A stretch of DNA of 64,000 nt from Kutzneria kofuensis (lineage in GTDB: Bacteria > Actinomycetota > Actinomycetes > Mycobacteriales > Pseudonocardiaceae), in the NCBI RefSeq assembly GCF_014203355.1, contig NZ_JACHIR010000001.1, positions 558,001 through 622,000 of the forward strand, in the 5' to 3' direction. The translations under genes and the position numbers were made by a program. Positions 1,807-46,643 of the stretch are shown here, one piece after another (positions within the stretch are counted from its first letter, which is position 1; the number at the start of each line of letters is the position of its first letter). Below the pieces are notes generated by a model. It did not search any database and was not told the DNA's origin. It worked only from the letters and a program-made list of their open reading frames with translations.

Positions 1807-2292
1807 CTAGAAGTGAGTCGCGATGCCGAACACCTCCCGGAGCCGGGCCATGTCGTAGCGGTCGCGGTCGGTGGGCTCGTAGCCCTGGTGGAAGCAGACC
1901 TGCTGCTCCGCCGACAGACACGGCACCCGCGTCCCCCGGATCGTGCCCGTGACGAAACACGATGCCGGATAGCGGAACGGCTGCTCGGGAACGAAAGACG
2001 CCTGCACCGCCGACCCGTCCGGCGCGAAGACCAACGGGTGCAGGTCGATCTCCCGCCCAGCCGGATCCGTCACCACGAACCGCACCGGCCGCCAGTCCAG
2101 CGTCTCCACGAACCCGGCCGCCGCCAACGCGGCGACGACTGCCGGCTCCTGGTCCTCCCGGTGCGCCAGGTCCAGATCCCGGTGCTCGCGCGTCTGCTCA
2201 CCGACGAGAGCGTCGATGCCCCAACCACCGCCGATCCAGACGTCGAACTCCCGCAGCACCGTCACAATGGCCAGCACATCGTCAGCCGTCAT
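1807..2292 (-). CDS. Nucleotidyltransferase of the aminoglycoside/lincosamide adenylyltransferase type
   Basis: A 161-residue protein with the minimal nucleotidyltransferase motif WIGGGWGIDALVGEQ followed by REHRDLDLAH (G-G ... D-x-D), as in LinA/ANT(2'')-type enzymes. The C-terminal part (RDRYDMARLREVFG) also fits this family. I chose ATG 2292 (MTADDVLAIV) because it directly precedes the conserved domain; the frame is open further upstream to 2439, but that extension lacks family similarity. Such enzymes transfer AMP to an antibiotic hydroxyl group. Drug modification here is inference; a housekeeping substrate is possible. Confidence 0.75.
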   Translation of the reverse strand: MTADDVLAIVTVLREFDVWIGGGWGIDALVGEQTREHRDLDLAHREDQEPAVVAALAAAGFVETLDWRPVRFVVTDPAGREIDLHPLVFAPDGSAVQASFVPEQPFRYPASCFVTGTIRGTRVPCLSAEQQVCFHQGYEPTDRDRYDMARLREVFGIATHF

Positions 2293-2427
2293 CACCGCCC
2301 GCACGCTAGCGACGCCTCGCACGAGTATGCGACCGGATTTTGCCCGACCGCATTCGACTAAAGTCGTACGACTCGTTCCGACGCAAGATCGATGCCGGGT
2401 AACCCGATCAGCCCATAGCTTCGTGTC

Positions 2428-2688
2428 ATGTCGCACCACCTCGCGCAGGCGCTCAGCATCAGTCGGGACGCGGCCGCCCAGGGCATCGGGATCGGCCTGC
2501 TCATCGCCCTCATCGCCGGGGGCATCTTCCTGGTCGTCTTCTTCCTGGCGGCGCTGTTCAGCATCCTCGGCGCCGACATCGGCTGCGGCGGCAAGATCCT
2601 CTGGTTTCTCGTGATCCTCTGCCTGCCGTTCCTGGGCAGCCTGCTCTGGTTCGTCGCCGGCCGCCCGCGCCCCCGCCCGTACTACTGA
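2428..2688 (+). CDS. PLDc_N-like small membrane protein
   Basis: An 86-residue protein with two hydrophobic helices, one at about residues 20-45 and one at about 57-78, the second ending LWFVAGRPRPR. That pattern (two helices, the second closing with a W-x-x-G-R-P-R-like turn) matches the phospholipase-D-nuclease N-terminal (PLDc_N) membrane module found alone in many actinobacteria. It is divergent from the nucleotidyltransferase and convergent with the LCP gene. The role is unknown. Confidence 0.7.
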   Translation: MSHHLAQALSISRDAAAQGIGIGLLIALIAGGIFLVVFFLAALFSILGADIGCGGKILWFLVILCLPFLGSLLWFVAGRPRPRPYY

Positions 2689-2736
2689 GCGAACACGAGG
2701 GGCACTACCGTCTGCCGCCCGTGGCCTGGGCCATCG

Positions 2737-4275
2737 CTAGTTGATGCAGGGAACGCCGTCGGCGGTGATCGCCGAGTTGGACGACGTCGTCGACGGCGCC
2801 GCGGCGGCGAAGGTGTTGAGCTGCATGGGGGCGTTGCCGGTGAAGCCGTACTTGGTGTTGTAGTCGGTGCCGACGTAGACCCGGACATGCCCGGCGGTGA
2901 TGGAGTCGTCGGGGACGAGCGGGAGGCCGCCGAGGGCGGTGGCCACGGCCTGCGCCGCCGCCTTGCCACCCGACGGGTAGTTCACGCTGGAAGCCTTGCG
3001 GGCAGTGGCATTCCCCGTGTCCCCGCGCCCAAAGCCCTTGCCCACCAGCTTTTCCTCGACGCTGCCGGCCAGGCCGGCCACGCCGGAGGCGTTGCGAACG
3101 TCCACAGTGGTCGATGAGTAGTCGACGCTGTTGGGGCTGGCGGCGCCGGTGGGCGAAGCGGAGCCGCTGGCGGCGCCGCCGATGGTCTGCTTGACGAACT
3201 CCTGCACCTGCGCGGGATCGACCTGGACGGCGTCGCCGTCGTGCGGGGTCTGCAGGGTGATGCTGACGATCGGAATCGTCACGAACTTGATGTTGCCGGT
3301 GCTCATGCCCTGCAGCTGCTGGGCGAACTGCAGCACGTCCCAGCCCTGGTCGATGACGACGGCCTTCTTCACGGCGCCGATGAGGTCGTTGAGCTTGCCG
3401 GGATTGGCCAGCGTGCCGGCGGACAGCACGGTCTTGGCCATGCTGGACATGAACGCCTGCTGCCGCTTGATCCGGTCCAGGTCGCCGTTGGGCAGACCAT
3501 GGCGCTGCCGAACGAAGGCGAGCGCGGCGGAGCCCTCCACGGTCTGCTGACCGGCCGGGAAGTTGGCGCCGGAGAAGGAATCCTTGACGGGCGCGACGAG
3601 GCACACGGGCACGCCGCCGATGGCCTGGCTGATGAAGTAGAAGCCGGCGAGATTGACCGCGGCGTAGTGGGTGATCTGGAGCCCGGTGAACTGTTCGATG
3701 GTGGCGATGGAGGTCTTGGCGCCGGCCTCGGCGGCCTTGGTCTCCAGGTCGGCGCCGGACAGCCCCTGCTTGGACAGCGTGGAGTAGGCGTCGTTGCGGC
3801 CGTAGCTGTAGGCCGAGTTGATCTTGTGCTTGCCGAAGCCGTCGGCGATCTGCACGTACGAGTCGCGCGGGATGGAGATCGCGGTCGCGGCGCCGCCGCC
3901 GGCCGGGATGTGGATCACGATCATGGTGTCGGTGGTGTCGCCGCCGTCGTCCCCACCGCCGGCGTGCAGCTGGTTGAGCACGTCCTTGGGCAGCGGGTTG
4001 CCCATCGCGTCGGTCCGGGTGTCCAGCCCGACCATGAGGATGTTCTGCTCGGCCAGCGGGGACACGGTCTTGCCGATCACGTTGGCCGTGGTCAGGCCGT
4101 TGAGCTGGGCCAGCTGCGACCACGCGTACCAGGTGCCGCCGAACACGACCATCGACACCACGACCATCAGCACCTGGACGGTGCGCAGGGCGGGGCTGGG
4201 GCGGCGGCGCGCGGCCGGCCGGGGCCGCCCGGCGGGCCGCGGGGGCACCCGCCGCACGTCGACACGCTCCGGCAT
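2737..4275 (-). CDS. LytR-CpsA-Psr (LCP) family wall-polymer ligase with LytR_C domain
   Basis: A 512-residue type II membrane protein. It has a basic Pro/Arg-rich cytoplasmic tail (residues 1-30), one transmembrane helix (about 33-54), then an extracytoplasmic LCP domain starting at NILMVGLDTRTD and containing the family arginine/aspartate segments (DTTDTMIVIHIP, ISIPRDSYVQI, HKINSAYSYG, DLDRIKRQQAFM). A Ser/Pro linker leads to a LytR_C domain (STTVDVRNASGVAGLAG to the C-terminus). LCP proteins attach undecaprenyl-linked glycopolymers to peptidoglycan or arabinogalactan. Start ATG 4275 is well placed before the basic tail. Confidence 0.92.
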   Translation of the reverse strand: MPERVDVRRVPPRPAGRPRPAARRRPSPALRTVQVLMVVVSMVVFGGTWYAWSQLAQLNGLTTANVIGKTVSPLAEQNILMVGLDTRTDAMGNPLPKDVLNQLHAGGGDDGGDTTDTMIVIHIPAGGGAATAISIPRDSYVQIADGFGKHKINSAYSYGRNDAYSTLSKQGLSGADLETKAAEAGAKTSIATIEQFTGLQITHYAAVNLAGFYFISQAIGGVPVCLVAPVKDSFSGANFPAGQQTVEGSAALAFVRQRHGLPNGDLDRIKRQQAFMSSMAKTVLSAGTLANPGKLNDLIGAVKKAVVIDQGWDVLQFAQQLQGMSTGNIKFVTIPIVSITLQTPHDGDAVQVDPAQVQEFVKQTIGGAASGSASPTGAASPNSVDYSSTTVDVRNASGVAGLAGSVEEKLVGKGFGRGDTGNATARKASSVNYPSGGKAAAQAVATALGGLPLVPDDSITAGHVRVYVGTDYNTKYGFTGNAPMQLNTFAAAAPSTTSSNSAITADGVPCIN

Positions 4276-4453: not shown

Positions 4454-5173
4454 TCATCGGGTCAGCGGAAGGCCGAAACGCACCGGGACGCCGGGCGACC
4501 ACAGCACGCTCACGGGCGGCTCGCCCGGCCGGGGCACCCCGGCGGCGACCAGCAGGCCGTCCTCGATGTCCAGCAGCTCGGCGCGGTGCAGCGGCCAGGC
4601 GGGGTGCTCGTTCGGCACGTAGAGCGTGCGGCCGTGCCACGCCACGTGCAGGCCCCAGCGGGCGGTCAGGAAGTGCTCCAGCTCACTCGGCTCGGCGATC
4701 GGCGCGCCGGGCAGCACCCGGATCCGGCTGGACGGGCCGCCGCCGCGTCGCCGGCAGGTGTACGTGACGACGTCGCCCTCCCGGCGCACCCGCATCGACG
4801 ACCAGATGTACGGCAGGCCGACGGCGTGCCGGCCGACGAGCACCGGCAGCAGCCGGGCCGCGTCCAGCGAGCGGAACACCACGCCGCGCCGGCCCCGACC
4901 GTCCACTGAGTACAGGCGCACGTTCGTCTCCGGGAACGTGCCGAAGTACGGCATCCGGAGCACGTTGCGCATCCCGAACGGAACCAGCCCCACGTACGTG
5001 ATTCCGGCCAGCGTGTCCGGAACCGTGCCGGCCGGCAGGAACCCGGCGATCCGGTCCGGCTCCACCGGCCAGTGCAGGAAGGTGAGGTCGCGCCAGGTCT
5101 GCGTCATCATCGCCCGCCGCACCGGCCGCGGCGTGGTGACAGTGATCGACTCGGGGACCGGCTCGACCTCCAC
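4454..5173 (-). CDS. DUF2071 (YqjF-like) protein
   Basis: A 239-residue protein matching the YqjF/DUF2071 family: TQTWRDLTFLHWPVEPDRIAGFLP near the N-terminus, then the family pattern LVPFGMRNVL, PYFGTFPETNVRLYS, GVVFRSLDAARLLPVLVGR and a C-terminal H-P-A-W segment. The GTG at 5173 is the furthest supported start; the internal Met-Met at about residue 21 is an alternative, since conservation begins there. It is divergent from the radical SAM operon. Its biochemical function is not established. Confidence 0.82.
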   Translation of the reverse strand: MEVEPVPESITVTTPRPVRRAMMTQTWRDLTFLHWPVEPDRIAGFLPAGTVPDTLAGITYVGLVPFGMRNVLRMPYFGTFPETNVRLYSVDGRGRRGVVFRSLDAARLLPVLVGRHAVGLPYIWSSMRVRREGDVVTYTCRRRGGGPSSRIRVLPGAPIAEPSELEHFLTARWGLHVAWHGRTLYVPNEHPAWPLHRAELLDIEDGLLVAAGVPRPGEPPVSVLWSPGVPVRFGLPLTR

Positions 5174-5288
5174 TCCCCCATGCTAACCCACGGGTTGCCC
5201 GAAACTACCCGGCCGGTGGTGACTCCGGTGCAACCACGCGTCGGGAAAAGCCTTGCGGGACACCGGTTCCGGCCCGTCCTACGTAGAT

Positions 5289-5302
5289 GTGCGTATACGC
5301 AC
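5289..5302. promoter_or_regulatory. Perfect 14-bp palindrome upstream of the radical SAM operon
   Basis: GTGCGTATACGCAC is self-complementary over all 14 bases. It lies 57 bp before the GTG of the radical SAM gene, in the only intergenic gap of the divergent DUF2071/radical SAM pair. Size and position fit an operator for a dimeric repressor. No obvious regulator gene is adjacent, so the cognate protein is unknown. Confidence 0.55.
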
Positions 5303-5359
5303 GGCCGCCCGGCGGCGACAGGATCTCCCCGGGGACCTCGTCCGAGGAGAACGGAAGCC

Positions 5360-6679
5360 GTGCGAGCAAGCAGATATCTCGTCGTCAGTGACACCGTGTA
5401 CGCCGATGGCCGTGGCAATCCGGTCCGGCTCGTGCTCAACACCCGCACCTCACGGGTCTGCACGCTCGGCGACAACCTGGCGTGGGCGCTGCGCCACGGC
5501 GACTGCGCCACGCTGCCGGTCGAGGTCTCCGACCAGCTGTCCGACCTCAAGATCCTCGTGCCCGAGGGCCGGGACGAGCTGACCGACGTGATGGACGAGC
5601 AGCGGGCCAAGGCGCGCTCGCTGGCGTCGCTGAACTACGTGCTGGTGCCGACCGGGTACTGCAACCTGGGCTGCGAGTACTGCGGTCAGGTGCACGTGCG
5701 CGGCAAGACCTCCGCCAATCACCGCGGCGCGGTGAGGGACCGGATCCTGCGCGGCATCCGGCGGCCGAGCACCGAGGAGGTGCAGGTCGGCTGGTTCGGC
5801 GGCGAACCGCTGATGGCGTACGCGATCGTGCGCGACCTGGCCCGGCAGTTCGTCGAGGCGGCCGAGGCGGAGGGCGTGCGCTACCGGTCCCGGATGACCA
5901 CCGGCGGCGCGCTGTTGACCATGCCCAAACTCCGTGCCCTGTATGAGGAATGCCGGATCAGCTCGCTGTGCCTGACGATGGACGGCATCGGCGACCGGCG
6001 CTCCCCGCACGAGCAGATCCTGTCCGTGCTGGCGGATCTGGTTGCCCACGCGGACGAATTCCCCGGTCTGCGGTTGACGATCCGCAGCAGCCTGGACGTG
6101 AAGGACGTCAACCGGGTGGACGCCTTCATCGACGCCATGGTGTCGGCCGGCCTGAACCACCCGATGATCGAGTTCGACCTGCGCGTGGTGCAGGGCTGGA
6201 GCAACGACGCGTCCACGACCCGAACCGCCCGGCAGCGGTTCGCGGCGGCGGAACCCCGCTGGCTGCGCCGGATGCACGAGGTCGGGATGGTCACCCGGAC
6301 GCTGATCCCGGCGCAGCTGCGGGGGCCGCTCTGCCCGGCCGTGACCCGCACGGCGGAGGTGATCAGCAGCAGCGGCGCGATCTTCTCGTGCACCGAGCAT
6401 CCGCTGGTGCCCGAGCACGAGCAGGGCGACGTGCTGGAGCTGGTGGAGCACGCCGACCACGACCGGCAGCGGCCGGCCGGCCGTTACGACGACTGGCATG
6501 ACCGGATCAACCGCGGCGAGCAGAGCTGCGCCGGCTGCGTGTTCCTGCCGGTGTGTGGCGGCAGCTGCCCGAAACACTGGGGCGAGGGCAATTCGCCCTG
6601 CCCCAGCTACAAGTTCAACATCCAGCAGCGGCTGGACCTGGAGGCCGCCCGCACCGGCCTGACCCCGCTCTTGACGTGA
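5360..6679 (+). CDS. Radical SAM/SPASM-domain protein
   Basis: A 439-residue protein. After an N-terminal domain of about 90 residues ([22 protein letters not shown]) comes the radical SAM motif CNLGCEYC (C101, C105, C108), then GGEP ([10 protein letters not shown]). A C-terminal Cys-rich SPASM-like region has cysteines at about 390, 393, 399, 403 and 414 ([14 protein letters not shown] then C). Such enzymes cleave SAM to a 5'-deoxyadenosyl radical, and many modify ribosomal peptides. GTG 5360 is chosen because GAGGAG precedes it by about 10 bases. The frame is open upstream to 5072, but that part runs antisense through the neighbouring gene. The substrate is unknown, and no precursor peptide was found next to it. 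Confidence 0.85.
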
Positions 6680-6726
6680 CCCGGTCGGCCTCGGTACTGA
6701 GGTACGAGACGTCGGAGAGGGGCACC

Positions 6727-7611
6727 ATGGCCACCGAGGGGCACGTCGCGTTCGGCGATCACCAGACCTGGTACCGGATCACAGGTGAGCTCGGCTCAGG
6801 TGGCGTGCCACTGGTCGCGCTGCACGGCGGGCCGGGCTGCACGCACTACTACCTGCTCCGGCTGACGTCGCTGGCCGACGACCGGGCCGTGGTGCACTAC
6901 GACCAGCTGGGCAACGGGCGTTCCACACACCTCAAGGACGCACCGCCCGACTTCTGGACGGTGGAGCTCTTCCTGGCAGAACTGGACAACCTGCTGAGCG
7001 CACTGGGCATCGCCGACCGCTACGCGCTGCTCGGGCAGTCCTGGGGCGGCATGCTGGCCGCGGAGCACGCCGTGCGCCGGCCGGCGGGCCTGCGCGGGCT
7101 GGTGATCGCCAACTCGCCGGCGTCGATGCACCTGTGGTCGGCGGCCGCGGACCGGCTGCGCGCGGAACTCCCGCCGGACGTCGAGAAGACGCTGCGCACG
7201 CACGAGGCCGACGGCACCACCGACAGCCAGGAGTACAAGGACGCCGTGCAGGTGTTCTACGAGCGGCACCTGTGCCGGGTGGTGCCGATGCCGGACGAGG
7301 TGGCCGCCACGTTCGAGGCGCTGGACGACGATCCGACCGTCTACCACGCGATGAACGGGCCCAGCGAGTTCCACGTGATCGGCAGCATCCGGGACTGGTC
7401 GATCATCGACCGGATCGATGCGGTCGCGGTGCCGACCCTGTTGGTCAGCGGCCGGCACGACGAGGCGACACCCGAGACCGTGCAGCCGTACTTCGACCGC
7501 ATCCCCGACGTGCGGTGGGAGATCTTCGAGGAGTCCAGCCACATGCCGCACGTGGAGGAGCCCGAGCGGTTCACCGAGGTGGTCGGCGGCTTCCTGCGGA
7601 CGCTGTCGTGA
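6727..7611 (+). CDS. Proline-iminopeptidase-like alpha/beta hydrolase (S33)
   Basis: A 294-residue alpha/beta hydrolase. It has the S33 oxyanion motif HGGPG (33-37), the nucleophile elbow GQSWGG (Ser105), the acid residue in [10 protein letters not shown] (about 245) and the catalytic His in [11 protein letters not shown] (about 272). This combination is typical of proline iminopeptidases and tricorn-factor-like aminopeptidases. ATG 6727 follows GGAGAGG with good spacing. It sits 47 bp after the radical SAM gene and overlaps the permease start by four bases, so it could cleave or hydrolyse a small peptide or amide handled by the same operon. The last point is inference. Confidence 0.87.
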
Positions 7612-40636: not shown

Positions 40637-42223
40637 ATGGATCCGAGAACCTGGGACACCGACGAGGTGCGTCGCTACCTGCTGCTCGGCACGTCGCCGC
40701 CGGACACCGAGGGCGTCTCCGGCGTGGGCGAGCGGGCGATGGTGGTGGGCTCCACCGGGCCGTTCGCCCAGCTCGCCGGCCGGCAGGCGCTGGCGGCCGG
40801 CGGCAGCGCGGTGGACGCCGTCATCGCGACGTCCCTCGCCCAGATCGCGCTGGCCGCCGGCTCGTGGGTGAGCTATGCGGGTGTATTCACCATGACGCAT
40901 TTCCTCGACGGCAGAACGGATTCGCTCAGCGCCGGCTTCGCGACGTTCGCCGAGGAGGACGACCCCGCCAGCATCCCGCGGCAGCCGATCGCGAGCGGCC
41001 GTACGGCATTGGTGCCGGGCTTCATGGCCGGAGTGCAGGCAGCGCACCGAAGATTCGGTCGCCTACCGTGGGCGGATCTCTTCGAGCCGGCGATTTTTGT
41101 TGCCGAGCAGGGCTTTCCGGTCGGCCTCGGCCGGGCAAACCAGTTCGCGCTACGGAAAGATGTTCTGCCGCCGGGGTTTCATGCCGTCGAGGGCGACGAG
41201 TTCCGCCAGCCCGACCTGGCCCGCACGCTGCGGGCCGTCGCCGCCGAGGGCGCGGAGTGGATGTATCACGGGCCGTGGGCACGGGAGTTCGTCGACGTCG
41301 TGCGCGCGGCCGGCGGCAAGGCCACGCCGGCCGATCTCGCCGCGTACGAACCGGTTTGGGACACGCCGGTGACCGTGGACTTCCACGGTGCCCAGGTGCA
41401 CGCCGTCGGCCGACCGAACCGTGGCGGCGTGGCCCTCGCCGAGGCGTTACGCCTGGCCGAGGGCATCGGCGACCCGCTGACCGACCCGGTCGCGCTGCGG
41501 GACCTGATCGGCGTCGCGCGGCAATCCGGCCGTCCCGGCGGGCACTCCGACTTCGTGCTGGCCGTCGACTCGTACGGGGCCGTGGCCGCCGCGTGCCACT
41601 CCATCAACACCAGCTTGTGGGGCACCACCGGCTTGTTCGCCGGCGGCGTCTCCATCCCCGATGCAGCGTCGTTCCAGCAGGCCACCCTGGCCAAGCTCGG
41701 CCCCGGCGAGCACTTACCGTCGCCCGCCAACCCCGCGATCGTGCTGCGCGACGGCGTGCCGGTGCTGGCATCCAGCAGCATCGGCGCCGGCTTGCACTGC
41801 GCCACCCTGCAATGCCTGCACGCCGTGCTCGGCCTCGGCGTGGACATCGCCGACGCCGTGCGCCGCCCAATGTTCCACGGCCCCGACTACCTGGCCGGCG
41901 ACACCGTCGTCACACCCGTGCAGGATCGATTACAGGGCAAGCGTTTCGGCTCCGCGTGGCAGAACGCCGTGCAGCGCGCCCGCGAGGCCGGCGTGTCCCG
42001 CGAAGGCATGTGGGATGCCGTGCTGGCCGACATCCCCCAGGTCATCGAGGACCGCTTCGACTCGGATGTGCTGCGCCGCGCCGAGGAGCTCGGTCAGCGG
42101 CTCACCGTGCGACCCGTCACCGAGCCGTCCATCCCCCGCGGCTTCTGGGGCGGGATCGCCCTCGGTGACCGGCTCGTCGGCGCACGCACCCCGTTCTCGG
42201 GCGGCACCGTCGAAGGGCTGTAG
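40637..42223 (+). CDS. Gamma-glutamyltransferase-like Ntn-hydrolase
   Basis: A 528-residue protein of the GGT family: GPFAQLAGRQALAAGGSAVDAVIATSLAQIALAAG, a large-subunit region to about residue 310, and a small-subunit-like part with CHSINTSLWGTTGLFAGG and PANPAIVLRDG. ATG 40637 follows AAGGAGG. At the expected self-cleavage site (T-T-H in known GGTs) the protein has G-H-S-D, so a Ser may replace the Thr nucleophile. No signal peptide is visible. It may cleave gamma-glutamyl or related amide bonds, or be inactive. Confidence 0.8.
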   Translation: MDPRTWDTDEVRRYLLLGTSPPDTEGVSGVGERAMVVGSTGPFAQLAGRQALAAGGSAVDAVIATSLAQIALAAGSWVSYAGVFTMTHFLDGRTDSLSAGFATFAEEDDPASIPRQPIASGRTALVPGFMAGVQAAHRRFGRLPWADLFEPAIFVAEQGFPVGLGRANQFALRKDVLPPGFHAVEGDEFRQPDLARTLRAVAAEGAEWMYHGPWAREFVDVVRAAGGKATPADLAAYEPVWDTPVTVDFHGAQVHAVGRPNRGGVALAEALRLAEGIGDPLTDPVALRDLIGVARQSGRPGGHSDFVLAVDSYGAVAAACHSINTSLWGTTGLFAGGVSIPDAASFQQATLAKLGPGEHLPSPANPAIVLRDGVPVLASSSIGAGLHCATLQCLHAVLGLGVDIADAVRRPMFHGPDYLAGDTVVTPVQDRLQGKRFGSAWQNAVQRAREAGVSREGMWDAVLADIPQVIEDRFDSDVLRRAEELGQRLTVRPVTEPSIPRGFWGGIALGDRLVGARTPFSGGTVEGL

Positions 42224-42598
42224 TCAGTCCTCGCGCACCTGCACGTCCACGACGTTCGGGTAGAACGCCACGTACTCCTTGATCTCCGCCACCGCGTCGT
42301 AGGGAGTCTCGTACGTCCACACCGCGTTGTCCGCCGAGGTCTCCCCCGCCCGGATGCTGTAGTAGGAGGCGTCCCCCTTGTACGGGCAGTACGTCTCGTG
42401 CTCCGACCGCTCCAGCAGCGTGAAGTCCACGTCCTTGCGCGGGATGTACCGCACCGCCGGGTACGTGCTCTCCTGCAGCGTCAGCGCCTCCCGGGTGTCC
42501 GCGATGACCCGGCCGCCGACCGTCGCCACCACGTGCTCACCCGTCGCCGTCACCGTGATCGGGTGCTTCTCGTTCGGGATCAGGACCTGCTTGCTCAC
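42224..42598 (-). CDS. DUF427 domain protein
   Basis: A 124-residue DUF427 protein: HVVATVGGRVIADTREALTLQESTYPAVRYIPRKDV, then ETYCPYKGDASYYSI and AVWTYETPYDAVAEIKEYVAFYP, the full family signature. It starts the base after the convergent GGT-like stop. No function is established. Confidence 0.9.
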   Translation of the reverse strand: MSKQVLIPNEKHPITVTATGEHVVATVGGRVIADTREALTLQESTYPAVRYIPRKDVDFTLLERSEHETYCPYKGDASYYSIRAGETSADNAVWTYETPYDAVAEIKEYVAFYPNVVDVQVRED

Positions 42599-42677
42599 CG
42601 TGCGTCAACTCCTCGACCTCTCGGATAGGAGGTGCAACGCCCCGCCCCCGGCGGCTTGTTCCGCGCTACCGTGACAC

Positions 42678-43187
42678 ATGATCGTCTGGGTGAACGGGAC
42701 CTTCGGGGCGGGCAAGACCACCACGTCGCGACTGCTGGTGAAGGCGCTGCCGCAGGCCCGGATCTTCGACACCGAGTACGTCGGCTTCATGCTGGGCCAC
42801 GTGCTGACCGAACCGGTCGAGAACTTCCAGGACAATCCGCCTTGGCGGGCCCTGGTCGTGCGCACCGCCGTCGAGGTGCTCGACCACGTCGGCGGCACGC
42901 TGGTCATCCCGCAGACCGTGCTGACCGAGTCCTACGCCCGGGAGATCTTCGACGGGCTGGCCGCCGAGGGCGTGAAGGTGCACCACTTCGTGCTGCACGT
43001 CGATCGCGAGGAGCTGGTTCGAAGGATCGTCGAGGATCGAGAGGAGGCGGGAGCGAAGCAGTGGCGACTCGACCATGTCGAGCGGTATGAGGCTGCGCTG
43101 CCGTGGCTGCGGGAGGCGGGGGTGGTTGTGGATACGACGAGGTTGGGAGCGGAGGAGGTGTGTGCCCGGATCGTGTCCGAGGTTTGA
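42678..43187 (+). CDS. TmrB-like P-loop ATP-binding protein
   Basis: A 169-residue P-loop protein: WVNGTFGAGKTTTSRLLVKALP at the N-terminus, then IFDTEYVGFMLGHVL and a helix with VDREELVRRIVEDREEAGAKQWRLDHVERYEAAL. The order and spacing match TmrB, which confers tunicamycin resistance in Bacillus. ATG 42678 follows no strong ribosome site. Substrate and resistance role here are inferred. Confidence 0.78.
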   Translation: MIVWVNGTFGAGKTTTSRLLVKALPQARIFDTEYVGFMLGHVLTEPVENFQDNPPWRALVVRTAVEVLDHVGGTLVIPQTVLTESYAREIFDGLAAEGVKVHHFVLHVDREELVRRIVEDREEAGAKQWRLDHVERYEAALPWLREAGVVVDTTRLGAEEVCARIVSEV

Positions 43188-43230
43188 GGGCTTGAGGCTC
43201 GGGGTTGTGGCGGGTTTTGCCGTGCATGTC

Positions 43231-43350
43231 GCGTGGATTTTGTGTGGAGCCTCTGGACGATGGCACTCAGGACTGTTTAGGGGCAGGCAGAGCCTGCCCT
43301 GAGTCGCTGTCAATTGTATGCCATCGTCCACCTCCACACAAAATCCACGC
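43231..43350. repeat. Hairpin repeat A (left inverted copy)
   Basis: A 110-bp core (43236-43345) is 96% identical (106 of 110) to the reverse complement of the core at 44906-45015. The copy is a long imperfect hairpin: GCGTGGATTTTGTGTGGA (43231-43248) pairs with 43333-43350, TGGACGATGGCA (43254-43265) with 43319-43330, and GGGCAGGC with GCCTGCCC near the tip (43281-43299). It lies 237 bp before the DUF222/HNH gene. Confidence 0.85.
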
Positions 43351-43550
43351 TCCGCTTCACCGCTTGCTGGCCCGCTTCACCGTTTCCCGACCCCGCTTCC
43401 CCCGCTTCACCGCTTGCCGGCCTCGCTTCCCCGCTTCCCACTTCCACGATCCCCCGATCCCCCGCTTCCCACTTCCTCAGTCCCCCGACCCCCATCCCCC
43501 AGAACGCGAAGCGCCCAGCGATTATGCATGAAACAATCACCCATTAGTGA

Positions 43551-43580
43551 TTCGAGTTCGATCTTTGGAGCGCGTATTCT
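43551..43580 (+). promoter_or_regulatory. Probable promoter of the DUF222/HNH gene (leaderless)
   Basis: TTCGAG (43551-43556) and TATTCT (43575-43580) are separated by 18 bp. The -10 hexamer ends six bases before the ATG at 43587, so transcription would start at or next to the start codon. No ribosome-binding site is present, which fits a leaderless message. Confidence 0.55.
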
Positions 43581-43586
43581 AAAGAC

Positions 43587-44732
43587 ATGGAAGAACTCAC
43601 CCTCGACATGGAGAACAAGGAGCCTTGCGGGGCCCTGTTTGACCTGTTGGCGAGGGTGGGCATTCCAGGCCTCTCCGGTCAGGAGAAGGTCACCGCCTAC
43701 ATTCTGGCCGGCAAGATCGCCGCATTCGGCCACGCCATCCAGCTGGAGGTCCTCCACCACGTCGACGACCTCACGGAGTTGGCCATGGCCGGCCATGAAC
43801 CCGAGCGGGCGTTGGGACAACGCAAGGAATTCAGCCGGGTGGTCGAGACACTGCCCCGGCTGTTCGCCCAGCTGCGGCGCGGGGAGATCGACCAGCGGCG
43901 GCTGGAAGTCGTGGACGAGCGGGTCGCCCACCTGCCCACCCAGGCCCTGATCACCCAGGTCGAAGACACCCTGATCGAGGTCGCGCCCGGGTTGAACCGC
44001 AGCCAACTCGCCCGCCAGACCACCAAACTCGTCGCGCTGGCCGACCCCGACGGCAGCGACCGACGCTGCCAGCAGGCCAAGGCCGAGCGCCGAGTCGAAT
44101 TCAGACCCCTCCCGGACGGGATGGCCCAGCTCAAGGCGGTGCTGCCCGCCGTGGAGGCCCGCATGGCCTACGACCTGCTCAACGCCGACGTCGCCGAGCT
44201 GCCCCAAGATGACCGGACCACCGACCAGAAGCGGGCCGACGCCTTCCTCGACCGCTTCCTCGCCAACACCAAGGAGCGCCAGGTCCAGGTGCATGTGACG
44301 ATCCCCGTCGAGACCTTGATCGGGCTGACCAAAGACCCCGGCCTGTTGGACGGCTACGGCCCCATCCCCGCCGAACTCGCCTGCGAACTGGCCATGCAGG
44401 GCCCCTGGCGCGGCATCCTGCTCGACGAGTACCGGCACGCCACCGGCATGAGCACCGCCAAGTACCGGCCCACCGCCCCCATGCGGGAGATGGTCAAGAT
44501 CCACGACGGCGGCACCTGCACCGCCCCCGGCTGCACCAGCCCCATCCGCGAACTCGACCACGTCATCCCCTGGCCCAAAGGCAAAACCACAGCCACCCAA
44601 CTCAAGGGCCTCTGCTCCTGGCACCACCACCGCAAACACGACAACTACACCGTCACCCTCGACCCCGACGGCACCACCACCTGGACCACACCCCAGGGCC
44701 GGGTCCACACCACCCGACCCCATCAGTACTAA
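43587..44732 (+). CDS. DUF222 / HNH-endonuclease protein (13E12-repeat type)
   Basis: A 381-residue protein. The N-terminal helical DUF222 domain covers residues about 20-280 (AYILAGKIAAFGHAIQLEVL, FSRVVETLPRLFAQLRRGEIDQRRLEVVDE, AYDLLNADVAEL, RADAFLDRFL). The C-terminal HNH site is CTAPGCTSPIRELDHVIPW, then GLCSWHHHRKHDN (C-x4-C, D-H, C-x2-HHH), with all catalytic and zinc residues kept. It resembles the REP13E12-type proteins of mycobacteria. It is bracketed by two inverted hairpin repeats, suggesting a mobile or DNA-processing role. Function is not established. Confidence 0.87.
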   Translation: MEELTLDMENKEPCGALFDLLARVGIPGLSGQEKVTAYILAGKIAAFGHAIQLEVLHHVDDLTELAMAGHEPERALGQRKEFSRVVETLPRLFAQLRRGEIDQRRLEVVDERVAHLPTQALITQVEDTLIEVAPGLNRSQLARQTTKLVALADPDGSDRRCQQAKAERRVEFRPLPDGMAQLKAVLPAVEARMAYDLLNADVAELPQDDRTTDQKRADAFLDRFLANTKERQVQVHVTIPVETLIGLTKDPGLLDGYGPIPAELACELAMQGPWRGILLDEYRHATGMSTAKYRPTAPMREMVKIHDGGTCTAPGCTSPIRELDHVIPWPKGKTTATQLKGLCSWHHHRKHDNYTVTLDPDGTTTWTTPQGRVHTTRPHQY

Positions 44733-45156
44733 CCCGCGTTCTTTGACAACTCCACAGCGAACGAAACCCGCCCGCCGACTCGTCGAACACCACGCCCCCA
44801 ATCCGATGGCGACCTTTCACCGCCCGCACCCACCACCCCTTCTCACCGGCACCCTTACACCACCCGACAGCCGCCACCCCATCACCCTCACCCCATACTT
44901 GGGCCGATTTTGTGTGGAGGTGGACGATGGCATACAATTGACAGCGACTCGGGGCAGGCTCTGCCTGCCTCTAAACAGCCCTGAGTGCCATCGTCCAGAG
45001 GCTCCACACCAAATCGGCCCACCCACGCCGCCAACCCCCGCCGCCCTAACACCACACAAATCCGCCCCGAACACCACTGAACCCCACCCAACCCAACACC
45101 TCAAATCCCCATCCCCTCCACAACCAAACCTACCGCCCATCCAAAGCATCAAACCC
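44733..45156. other. 424-bp gap holding hairpin repeat B and a C-rich tract
   Basis: Repeat B is at 44900-45021. Both flanks (44740-44900 and 45022-45150) are rich in C and A and poor in G on the plus strand, unlike the surrounding genes. No open frame has supporting features. The secreted protein gene ends at its right edge. Confidence 0.7.
44900..45021. repeat. Hairpin repeat B (right inverted copy)
   Basis: The 110-bp core 44906-45015 is the inverted counterpart of repeat A with four differences. The core again folds on itself, and its outer flanks pair further (TGGGCC at 44900-44905 with GGCCCA at 45016-45021). The flanks are unrelated to those of repeat A, yet in both copies they are complementary. 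Confidence 0.85.
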
Positions 45157-46347
45157 TCAAGCCTGATACGCCGCCGTCAGATCAGCGACCACCACATGCT
45201 TGTCGGTGTTGTAGTAGACGTAGAACTCGGTCTCCGTCCCGTGCATGGTGTCGTCCGGCGCGGCGAACGCCCCGATCCAGCCGAGGCCGTCGGGAATCGG
45301 CTCGCTGTCCCGCCACACGTACCAATCCCCGGCCCGCGTCCGCACGTACTCCCGCACGGCCCCGTCCGCGCCGGTCGTGAACATGTGCTCGCTGCCGTCG
45401 GCGTTCCAAAGGTACGAGTCATTAGCCGCATTAGGAGCCCAGCGCGGGTCGACCGTCGGGGTGGCCGCGGCGACGTCGGTGTCGGTCCACCGCCCGCCCT
45501 CCCACGCAACCTCGTGCAGGTGGGTGTCGCTGGTGTAGTAGCGCAGGGCATAGCGCACGAGGCGCCCGTCCCGCAGGAAGACCATCGAGTTCATGGTGAA
45601 GAACTTCTCGTCGGCCGGTACCCCGACCCGCTGGTCGGTCCACCGGCCGTGCTGCCCGGCCAGCACGTGCGGGTAGCCGTCGGTGCCGATGTACCCGATG
45701 GCCTCGCCGTCGGTGCCGAGCGACGACGCGGCGAGGTACCAGCCGTAGTCGTTCTTCGGGTGGATCCCGGCCCGCTCGGTCAGGTTGGTGAACCCCCACC
45801 CCGCCCCGGGCGCGAACGTCGCCTCCCAGATCACGCCGTTGCCGTGCCCGTCCTTGAAGACGACGTGCTGCTGGCCGTCCTGCTCGTAGCCGCGCGGGTC
45901 GAGCTCGATCAGCGGCCCGTGGTACGTCTCGGTGAGGTCGACCTTCTGCCACGTCGGCGAAGCGTCGCTGGACCACAATTCGATCAGGTGGTGGGTGACG
46001 CCGTCGGCGTAGACGATGTGCGAGCTGTGGTCCCAGGAGTACGAATACGTGGTCAGGTAGCCGAGGACGTACGCACTGTCCAAAGCGGTGGTCCACGTCC
46101 AGGATCCGCCCGGGGCAGAGCTGGCGACGATGATCCGTTGGTCGTCGCTGACGTACGCGAAGTGCCGCTTGAGGTCCCACGGCGTGTACCACCCCGCGGG
46201 CTCCATCTGCCCGACGGGAACGCCGGCGGAGCCGGTCAGGTCCTGGCTGGTGAAGTACCCGGCGCCGGCGTGCGCGGCCGGGGCCGCCAGCAGCGCGACC
46301 CCCACGGCGAGCGCGGCGGACAGCGCTCTGGCCCAGTTGCGTGACAT
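45157..46347 (-). CDS. Secreted beta-propeller-like protein of unknown function
   Basis: A 396-residue protein with a clear signal peptide (MSRNWARALSAALAVGVALLAAPAAHAG, cleaved near residue 27). The mature part has repeated W/Y-rich strand units (WTWTTALDSAYVLGYLTTYSY, HHLIELWSSDASPTWQKVDLTE, QHVVFKDGHGNGVIWEATF, YPHVLAGQHGRWTDQRVG), suggesting a lectin-like or beta-propeller fold. I recognise no family. ATG 46347 is chosen because it starts the signal peptide. Confidence 0.75.
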   Translation of the reverse strand: MSRNWARALSAALAVGVALLAAPAAHAGAGYFTSQDLTGSAGVPVGQMEPAGWYTPWDLKRHFAYVSDDQRIIVASSAPGGSWTWTTALDSAYVLGYLTTYSYSWDHSSHIVYADGVTHHLIELWSSDASPTWQKVDLTETYHGPLIELDPRGYEQDGQQHVVFKDGHGNGVIWEATFAPGAGWGFTNLTERAGIHPKNDYGWYLAASSLGTDGEAIGYIGTDGYPHVLAGQHGRWTDQRVGVPADEKFFTMNSMVFLRDGRLVRYALRYYTSDTHLHEVAWEGGRWTDTDVAAATPTVDPRWAPNAANDSYLWNADGSEHMFTTGADGAVREYVRTRAGDWYVWRDSEPIPDGLGWIGAFAAPDDTMHGTETEFYVYYNTDKHVVVADLTAAYQA

Positions 46348-46643
46348 GGCGACATCGTGACCAGCGCAAACGCCGTCCGGAATACGCAGTTCTGCGTAGT
46401 TCCTCCAGCAGGCCGAGCGCTCGGCGAGCAGCGCACGCAGCCCGCGCTCCCGGCGCGATGACCGCCACCAGCGCGACAACCTGTTGCAGACCAATGACTT
46501 CGCCAGGTAGCGGACGGCGTCAAACGTCCACTGGCCACAATACGACGCCGTGATCGAGGGCTGCGCGAGTTGTATCGGCAGAGTGTCCTGAGCCCGTCAC
46601 AGGTGATCCTGCGGCAACCGCCGACCGTGGTTAGGCTCGGGCC

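Follow-up and report, generated by a model that had tools for sequence, protein, structure and literature searches.

A DUF222-HNH gene between two palindromes

The DNA analyzed here, called the window throughout, is a stretch of 64,000 nucleotides of the Kutzneria kofuensis genome (contig NZ_JACHIR010000001.1, positions 558,001 to 622,000). It contains a multi-copy DUF222-HNH unit which is bounded by long palindromes, is present or absent at orthologous sites and has ends that are conserved in shape and in asymmetry. The initial annotation, made from the letters of the window alone, described the arms 43236-43345 and 44906-45015 as reverse complements with four differences, each forming a hairpin. 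We find the same: the arms are 110 nt long and 96% complementary to each other with four differences, and both are palindromic themselves, the outer stems 43231-43249 and 43332-43350 pairing to 100% and the outer stems 44900-44919 and 45002-45021 to 95%. A simple model of base composition (G+C 0.7) puts the chance expectation for such a pair of arms at about 10^-41 per 64-kb window. The 110-bp core proposed at that time is, however, too short; the recognisable unit comprises hairpins of about 120 bp and, outside them, a motif that is degenerate, rich in G and T and about 22 bp long.

On the left the unit begins with the outer motif (43206-43229, + strand), which reads roughly GGcGGGTTTttGcGGTGtgGGT and is degenerate. 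It is conserved outside the hairpins in 110 ends of the genomes G000, G004, G002 and G001 (G000 is the source genome, Kutzneria; G001-G006 and the further G numbers are comparison genomes and L numbers fetched loci). The left terminal hairpin of about 120 bp (43231-43350, + strand) is supported by self-complementarity, predicted fold and covariation, and its stems are broken by a bulge and loops. The bulge on the outer strand, CCTCT (43250-43254, + strand; CCYCT in most relatives), and the unpaired loop motif AATTGTA (43312-43318, + strand; AGCTTA or AGCGTA in other copies and genera) were identified from the sequence and the alignment of relatives. The right terminal hairpin (44900-45021, - strand) is the left core inverted, with an outer stem that is different yet self-complementary, and it has a CCTCT bulge on the outer side as well (44997-45001, read on the - strand). 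The right outer motif (45022-45045, - strand), an inverted relative of the left motif, is weakly conserved in the window copy.

As initially annotated, the arms enclose a single intact gene (43587-44732, + strand), an open reading frame of 381 amino acids (aa) with a DUF222 domain (PF02720; E 5.9e-21; 75.5 bits versus a gathering cut-off of 24.4). DUF222 is the sole Pfam domain called in the window protein; no RuvC domain was found, and the Pfam HNH domain stays below the threshold (E<=0.001). The HNH zinc-nuclease motif (residues 311-351; 44517-44639, + strand) is recognised by alignment and profile match. Its zinc Cys and His residues are invariant in an alignment of 24 proteins, and Pfam detects HNH in 3/3 distant relatives tested. 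When the family profile was compared with the sequences in the PDB, the HNH domain of IscB came first (E 6.9e-7), with the HNH part alone aligning. A match to the NCBIfam model guided_IscB, present in 1/3 proteins, lies far under the cut-off (19.7 versus 175 bits). The N-terminal part gave no convincing match to a solved structure, the one weak match being of MarR type (60 residues, E 0.0035), and the predicted structure, which has a mean confidence score (pLDDT) of 74, gave no Foldseek match at E <= 0.001. A partial PADLOC match to Csx19 (E 1e-4) was judged to be a chance match. Among phages and plasmids there were distant partial protein matches only, with 7 records each.

The ratio of nonsynonymous to synonymous divergence (dN/dS) is 0.16 among the six copies of the subfamily to which the window protein belongs (subfamily A) and 0.18, 0.10, 0.20 and 0.20 in four further paralogue groups. 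With ratios of 0.10-0.20 the protein is therefore under purifying selection, even though the copies are old, as the mean synonymous divergence (dS) within the groups is 0.21-0.35. The window element has this one gene, DUF222, and no DDE transposase. An intact Y1_Tnp domain (PF01797) was not found in the seven genomes of the genus, the one match covering 33 positions in a frame of 58 aa in G000.

Copies in the source genome

That nothing else resembles the arms is true for the window and not for the genome, where there are 16 further pairs. In G000 (10.4 Mb, five contigs) we obtained 62 DNA match rows, all within 17 inward-facing hairpin pairs. The protein search gave 17 DUF222-HNH genes and in addition two distant partial matches. 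In 14 of the genes the frame stays open along the match, and three (L016, L018, L024) are broken. Both ends could be located for 17/17 copies, which lie at scattered sites on three contigs. In 14 copies the unit has a length of 1555-1792 bp, and in three it is longer owing to extra DNA. Six genes, 91-100% identical to the window protein, make up subfamily A and eleven make up subfamily B, in which the open or long genes are 56-58% and the pieces of the broken ones 51-60% identical to the window protein.

The closest pairs of copies (97.8, 97.1 and 95.9% DNA identity) are without common flanks. The sole long flank match, between L010 and L020, is a separate repeat beginning 10-40 bp away, and four other pairs are alike over 22-68 bp on the left, inside or adjoining the end motif. 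The copies L018 (3031-4588) and L024 (3067-4622) are 97.8% alike and have the same broken gene in unrelated flanks; over the first 1113 bp they are the same but for 1 position, and many differences follow. This would result from transfer of an already broken copy by a helper acting in trans, or from conversion between the two copies.

The left and right hairpins do not evolve in concert element by element. The best match of an end is nearly always another element, its own partner being joint best for 0/28 ends in G000, 0/30 in G002, 2/26 in G004 and 0/12 in G001 (L011, L016 and L022 were left out of this comparison, and their right ends out of the hairpin profile). As the own partner is almost never the best match, homogenisation is genome-wide.

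Several copies carry additional DNA. In L016 (~4537-6795) and L022 (~4578-6004) additional DNA with a DDE_5 transposase gene interrupts the right hairpin, and insertion sequences that target palindromes are a possible parallel to this. In L011 (4572-5585) a Peripla_BP_6 gene, either a passenger or the result of a rearrangement, lies between the HNH gene and half a right hairpin. Just upstream of the left end of five of the 17 copies (L015, L020, L021, L024, L025) the sequence of the outermost stem is found in additional copies, which may have been left by earlier insertions or by tandem slippage.

Structure and asymmetry of the hairpins

The alignment of the hairpins (A1) contains 37 distinct ends from six genomes, ends with at most 5 bases difference from one already taken in the same genome being omitted. 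Double changes are found at 14/28 pairs of the predicted fold. In the structure specified for the covariation test 95.2% of the cells are paired, and its 84 double-change cells compare with 22.6 in shuffled alignments (0/500 reaching this number) and with at most 13 when the partner was slid; by one of the five measures, further pair types, the alignment is no better than the shuffles (24 versus 23.5). Within the two main stems there are 83 double-change cells and 12 one-sided cells of the G-U type, a pattern that is more like paired DNA than RNA.

This pattern also bears on the idea that the hairpins are transcribed structured RNAs which guide the nuclease in an OMEGA-like manner. The similarity of the HNH domain to IscB and the strong predicted fold would be in line with such RNAs, yet besides the excess of double over one-sided changes there are two inverted copies per element, and no Rfam family was found at gathering score in 42000-46500 of the window. 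We therefore regard a guide RNA as hardly credible. Rfam matches to microRNAs, far below their gathering scores, are chance matches to a long hairpin. The left hairpin has no plasmid match, and one 21-base stretch of it is without exact match in viral contigs.

The two sides of each hairpin differ. The bulge of 5 nt on the outer strand (CCTCT in the window copy, mostly CCYCT in relatives) is preserved across genera, and so is, in the inner loop, one of the motifs AGCTTA, AGCGTA and AATTGTA. With an outer bulge and an inner loop the ends of the element are therefore mirror images at this level too.

Presence, absence and position in related genomes

Relatives of the element are present in six of the seven genomes of the genus with 14 to 48 match rows each, and there are none in G005 (4.7 Mb). 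According to the hairpin profile both hairpins are present at 34/44 of the fetched loci of the main clade (15/16 in G002, 13/20 in G004, 6/8 in G001), or at 34/48 fetched DUF222 loci in these three further species when the distant-clade loci are included. Together with the copies of G000 this gives a set of 51 complete elements.

The window element is absent from the orthologous loci of G001, G002, G003 and G004, in all four of which both flanks were found. An arrangement in which orthologous loci always carry gene and repeats as a block is thus rejected. The exact junction cannot be read at this locus because the species also differ in the neighbour genes, G001-G003 being without the left-hand gene as well and G004 without the right-hand gene. 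At the site of L023 the element is present in G000, G002 and G003 and missing in G004, where the stop codons of two convergent genes lie about 1 bp apart; with only about 1 bp of intergenic DNA the gene ends are altered at this empty site. The place that corresponds to the site of the G002 element L084 holds no element in G000, G001, G003 and G004, in stretches (L123-L126) that were examined by hairpin-model search only. Across nine stretches spanning empty sites the hairpin model gave zero matches. The 17/17 copies in G000 and this presence and absence between species support the earlier proposal that the DUF222/HNH gene and its structured ends form a small mobile element.

With a home-made gene caller no predicted gene crosses the boundary of any of the 51 complete elements. 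They lie between convergent genes in 24 cases, between tandem genes in 20 and between divergent genes in 7. Any genome has roughly as many convergent as divergent gaps, and the numbers of 24 versus 7 therefore constitute a bias (one-sided p 0.0017). Among 18 hairpin places without DUF222 gene in six genomes, the 16 with both neighbours called are convergent in nine and tandem in seven cases, and never divergent.

A proposed mobile element with an HNH nuclease

We interpret the unit, with a probability of roughly one half, as a small REPtron-like mobile element in which an HNH nuclease takes the place of the HUH/Y1 transposase. Such an element would consist of the outer motif, a large asymmetric palindrome, one DUF222-HNH gene and the palindrome again in inverted orientation. 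Its ends may fold as single-strand hairpins or cruciforms, e.g., on the lagging strand, which is consistent with the upkeep of the palindromes through sequence change. The protein would then read the CCYCT bulge and the loop motif and thereby distinguish the outer from the inner side, a role suggested by the asymmetry and its conservation, and the HNH domain would nick the hairpin or the DNA close by. The freed element or a copy of it could be joined to intergenic DNA by host replication and repair; the observed distribution places the units mostly near the 3′ ends of genes. Finally, recombination or gene conversion may be what keeps the copies within a genome alike. The HNH enzyme would in this way cut the folded ends and thereby move or homogenise the unit. 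The most specific form of the proposal, that the DUF222-HNH nuclease cuts bulged palindromes in single-stranded or cruciform form, moves the unit and drives conversion by cutting unlike copies, is put forward tentatively.

A close parallel is the REPtron/RAYT system, for which PMC8266576 describes an enzyme gene beside palindromic repeats, inverted pairs, a stem bulge as the likely recognition mark and mostly extragenic palindromes. Similarly, we find an enzyme gene with inverted palindromes around it (17/17 in G000), a bulge in the stem and extragenic placement. The enzyme is, however, a DUF222-HNH protein and not an HUH/Y1 transposase, and the palindromes measure about 120-140 bp and not 20-50 nt. 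Dispersed solo palindromes or inverted palindrome pairs were not seen in G000 and were seen in other genera. The mode of action would thus be that of a REPtron, but the element does not qualify as one, since it lacks the HUH/Y1 enzyme by which REPtrons are defined.

IS200/IS605-like elements may have a single nuclease gene. Those with IscB or TnpB resemble the unit in their structured ends and the IscB-like HNH domain; here, however, no RuvC and no intact Y1 transposase were found, and the ends are true inverted copies. With insertion sequences of the DDE type the unit shares the size of 1.6-1.8 kb, the terminal inverted repeats and the presence in many copies. It differs in having no DDE transposase (DDE_5 occurs only in the extra DNA inside two other copies), no clear sign of a target duplication and terminal repeats that are each a long palindrome.

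The DUF222-HNH domain pair itself has been linked to the REP13E12 family in PMC10589994, where a mobile-element finder reported REP13E12-type repeats as 'other repetitive elements'. These repeats are described as being without a defined biological function in PMC13061034. They share with our unit the domain pair, the multiple copies and gene conversion between copies (PMC13061034), which is probable for our unit. MksG (PMC10123090) was rejected as a relative, as that work concerns DUF2220 and not DUF222. In the searched portions of the open-licence PMC literature we found no account of DUF222 genes bounded by long palindromes, and the palindrome-bounded DUF222-HNH element is apparently undescribed.

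If our interpretation is right, this would to our knowledge be the first case of a mobile element that is driven by a stand-alone HNH enzyme acting on hairpin ends. An HNH enzyme which moves the unit would add a transposition chemistry outside the classes of the DDE, tyrosine, serine and HUH enzymes. The large DUF222/REP13E12 family, with 33 matches in G006, 30 in G035, 50 in G039 and 46 in G099, would also gain a function. The tie between DUF222 genes and a conserved DNA structure at the ends of dispersed units makes this function directly testable.

Alternative explanations

A number of observations weigh against the mobile element with an HNH nuclease, and they are given here along with the explanations that they favour. 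As HNH enzymes hydrolyse the DNA and do not stay covalently attached to it, something else must carry out the joining. No clear signal of a target-site duplication was obtained versus shuffled flanks (51 elements; best z 4.8 among about 2,000 tests, with the element boundary being approximate). Template switching during replication is another possible source of double changes in stems (PMC8794818), so that covariation alone is no proof of selection.

Not all relatives are complete. Five of the 20 G004 loci have one end and two have none, and two G001 loci have one end. Both hairpins are found at 0/3 loci of G003, with one end each, and at 0/9 loci of G006, three of which have one end. Four distant-clade DUF222 loci of G002 are without hairpin according to the profile. 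No hairpin of the window type is detectable at the loci L093-L096 and L055 of the same genus, whose DUF222-HNH proteins are of other clades and share about 30% identity with that of the window.

Also, at least 3/17 G000 sites (L017, L019 and L023) hold an element which is also present in another species in the same orientation, with both flanks matching, and two more sites (L010 and L016) match on one flank; the count of shared sites is a lower bound, the comparison being restricted to fetched elements. At the three shared sites the elements have 71-75% DNA identity and the long flank matches 79-89%. The insertions thus differ between species and some are old, and the old ones resemble the other copies of the genome in which they lie. 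The shared sites are most simply explained by gene conversion; repeated insertion at one site is possible as well. Because some sites are old and common to several species, the unit may no longer be mobile.

The shared sites would suit such an immobile unit, in which a gene family of many copies, duplicated long ago and homogenised by conversion, has strong terminators acting in both directions at its ends. The mean dS of 0.21-0.35 within groups and the position of the hairpins mostly at gene 3′ ends point in the same direction. We nevertheless consider such a family quite improbable, given the 17 scattered sites on three contigs with homology lost at the ends and the absence from four orthologous window loci. 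Moreover, terminators would require neither a conserved bulge nor a mirrored asymmetry at both ends.

Conversion at shared sites is also what a retention or homing nuclease predicts. IscB and TnpB have been proposed to act as such nucleases in IS200/IS605-like elements. Here the HNH protein would cut copies or sites without the element, repair from the filled copy would restore or convert them, and another enzyme acting in trans would move the unit. The nearest solved HNH relative by sequence, the IscB HNH domain, fits this role. The three shared-site copies of the same orientation, which resemble the family of their own genome more than their flanks suggest, and the shared lesion of L018 and L024 with 1 difference in the first 1113 bp are in line with it. 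In the tuberculosis bacillus the REP13E12 repeats have been described as hotspots of gene conversion (PMC13061034). However, no candidate for the trans-acting transposase was found, Y1_Tnp being essentially absent in the genus in a screen that covered Y1 and no other transposase family, and the RuvC part of IscB was not found, as Pfam calls DUF222 only. Taken together, this explanation seems to us credible and yet rather unlikely.

In the wider family Pseudonocardiaceae, to which Kutzneria belongs, the covariance model R1 located the hairpin in 19/120 genomes sampled, belonging to 8/46 genera. Hairpins no more than 2 kb from a listed DUF222 gene number at least 21/22 in G006, at least 20/23 in G039, 7/18 in G035 and at least 0/8 in G060. 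The DUF222 genes compared were the best 25 of 33 in G006, 44 of 50 in G039, 30 of 30 in G035 and 1 of 2 in G060, and the misses are therefore upper bounds for G006, G039 and G060. Among the genes listed the near hairpins are oriented inward in 48/48 cases (21 in G006, 20 in G039, 7 in G035). All near hairpins of G006 and G039 lie upstream of the DUF222 gene, in G039 at a distance of 186-429 bp. In G035 palindromes flank the gene on both sides at 4/8 fetched DUF222 loci. At L164 both are of the R1 type; at the three other loci the upstream palindrome is a different one of 91 bp, and two of these overlap the start of the open frame.

The tie of the core to DUF222 thus holds for every hairpin of G000, but not throughout the other genera, as the numbers for G035 and G060 illustrate. 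Hairpins without DUF222 gene, with a shared unit of 126-243 bp, exist in G060, G082, G111, G121, G027 and G035. Some genomes are rich in hairpins and poor in DUF222, G060 having 8 hairpin places and 2 DUF222 matches and G082 having 27 hairpin match rows and 1 DUF222 match. At three of the six fetched places of G082 (L178:2839-3210, L181:2988-3368, L182:2738-3104) inverted hairpin neighbours face each other with their outer sides about 95-120 bp apart and no gene between them, an arrangement that is a little BIME- or REPIN-like.

Proteins and hairpins do not follow each other either. The overall correlation of protein and hairpin distances is high (Mantel r 0.784, 0/2000 permutations, 24 elements). 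Codivergence of the two was rejected, as this correlation is confounded by the kinship of the hosts and contradicted inside G039 and G006. The two DUF222 clades of G039 have proteins 25% identical and hairpins 86% identical, and in G006 the proteins are 27% and the hairpins 73% identical. The hairpin sequence follows the host genome more than the linked protein, and with unlike proteins having alike hairpins a simple lock of one protein to one hairpin can be dismissed. The bulge and the loop may be a common mark that is read by related proteins; otherwise the hairpins have another user.

Such a user would be at hand if the palindromes were an independent dispersed repeat, REP-like or akin to rolling-circle single-strand origins, which is moved or kept by another factor and on which the DUF222 genes hitchhike. 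The hairpins distant from DUF222 genes in G060, G082, G111, G121, G027 and part of G035, the gene-less inverted pairs of G082 and the dependence of the hairpin type on the genome speak for it. So do weak matches in one other genus, where 10 loci include one next to a replication initiator of the pSAM2 type and two next to an integrase of the phage type. Against it, at least 21/22 hairpins in G006 and at least 20/23 in G039 lie upstream of a DUF222 gene and point inward, and 17/17 pairs in G000 enclose such a gene. We hold an independent repeat to be unlikely.

The weak matches come from a class-wide search in which 11/394 genomes matched, G000 and ten genomes of the one other genus. The hairpins of this actinobacterial genus are built on the same general plan. 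The ten loci (L197-L206) have no DUF222 match within about 1.5 kb. At L200 the hairpin (1501-1606) lies upstream of the RepSA gene (1822-3102), and a link of the hairpins of this genus to replication origins of integrating plasmids is possible. To a rolling-circle single-strand origin there is a weak structural match at this one of the ten loci beside RepSA; a direct link to the origins in PMC4595007 was rejected, there being no motif in common.

Neighbouring genes

Two convergent genes lie outside the element of the window. The left neighbour (42678-43187, + strand) is an ORF with an AAA_33/AAA_18 domain, and the right neighbour (45157-46494, - strand) an ORF without Pfam family. At the orthologous locus of G001, G002 and G003 (L118, L119, L120) the right neighbour has at least two adjacent relatives.

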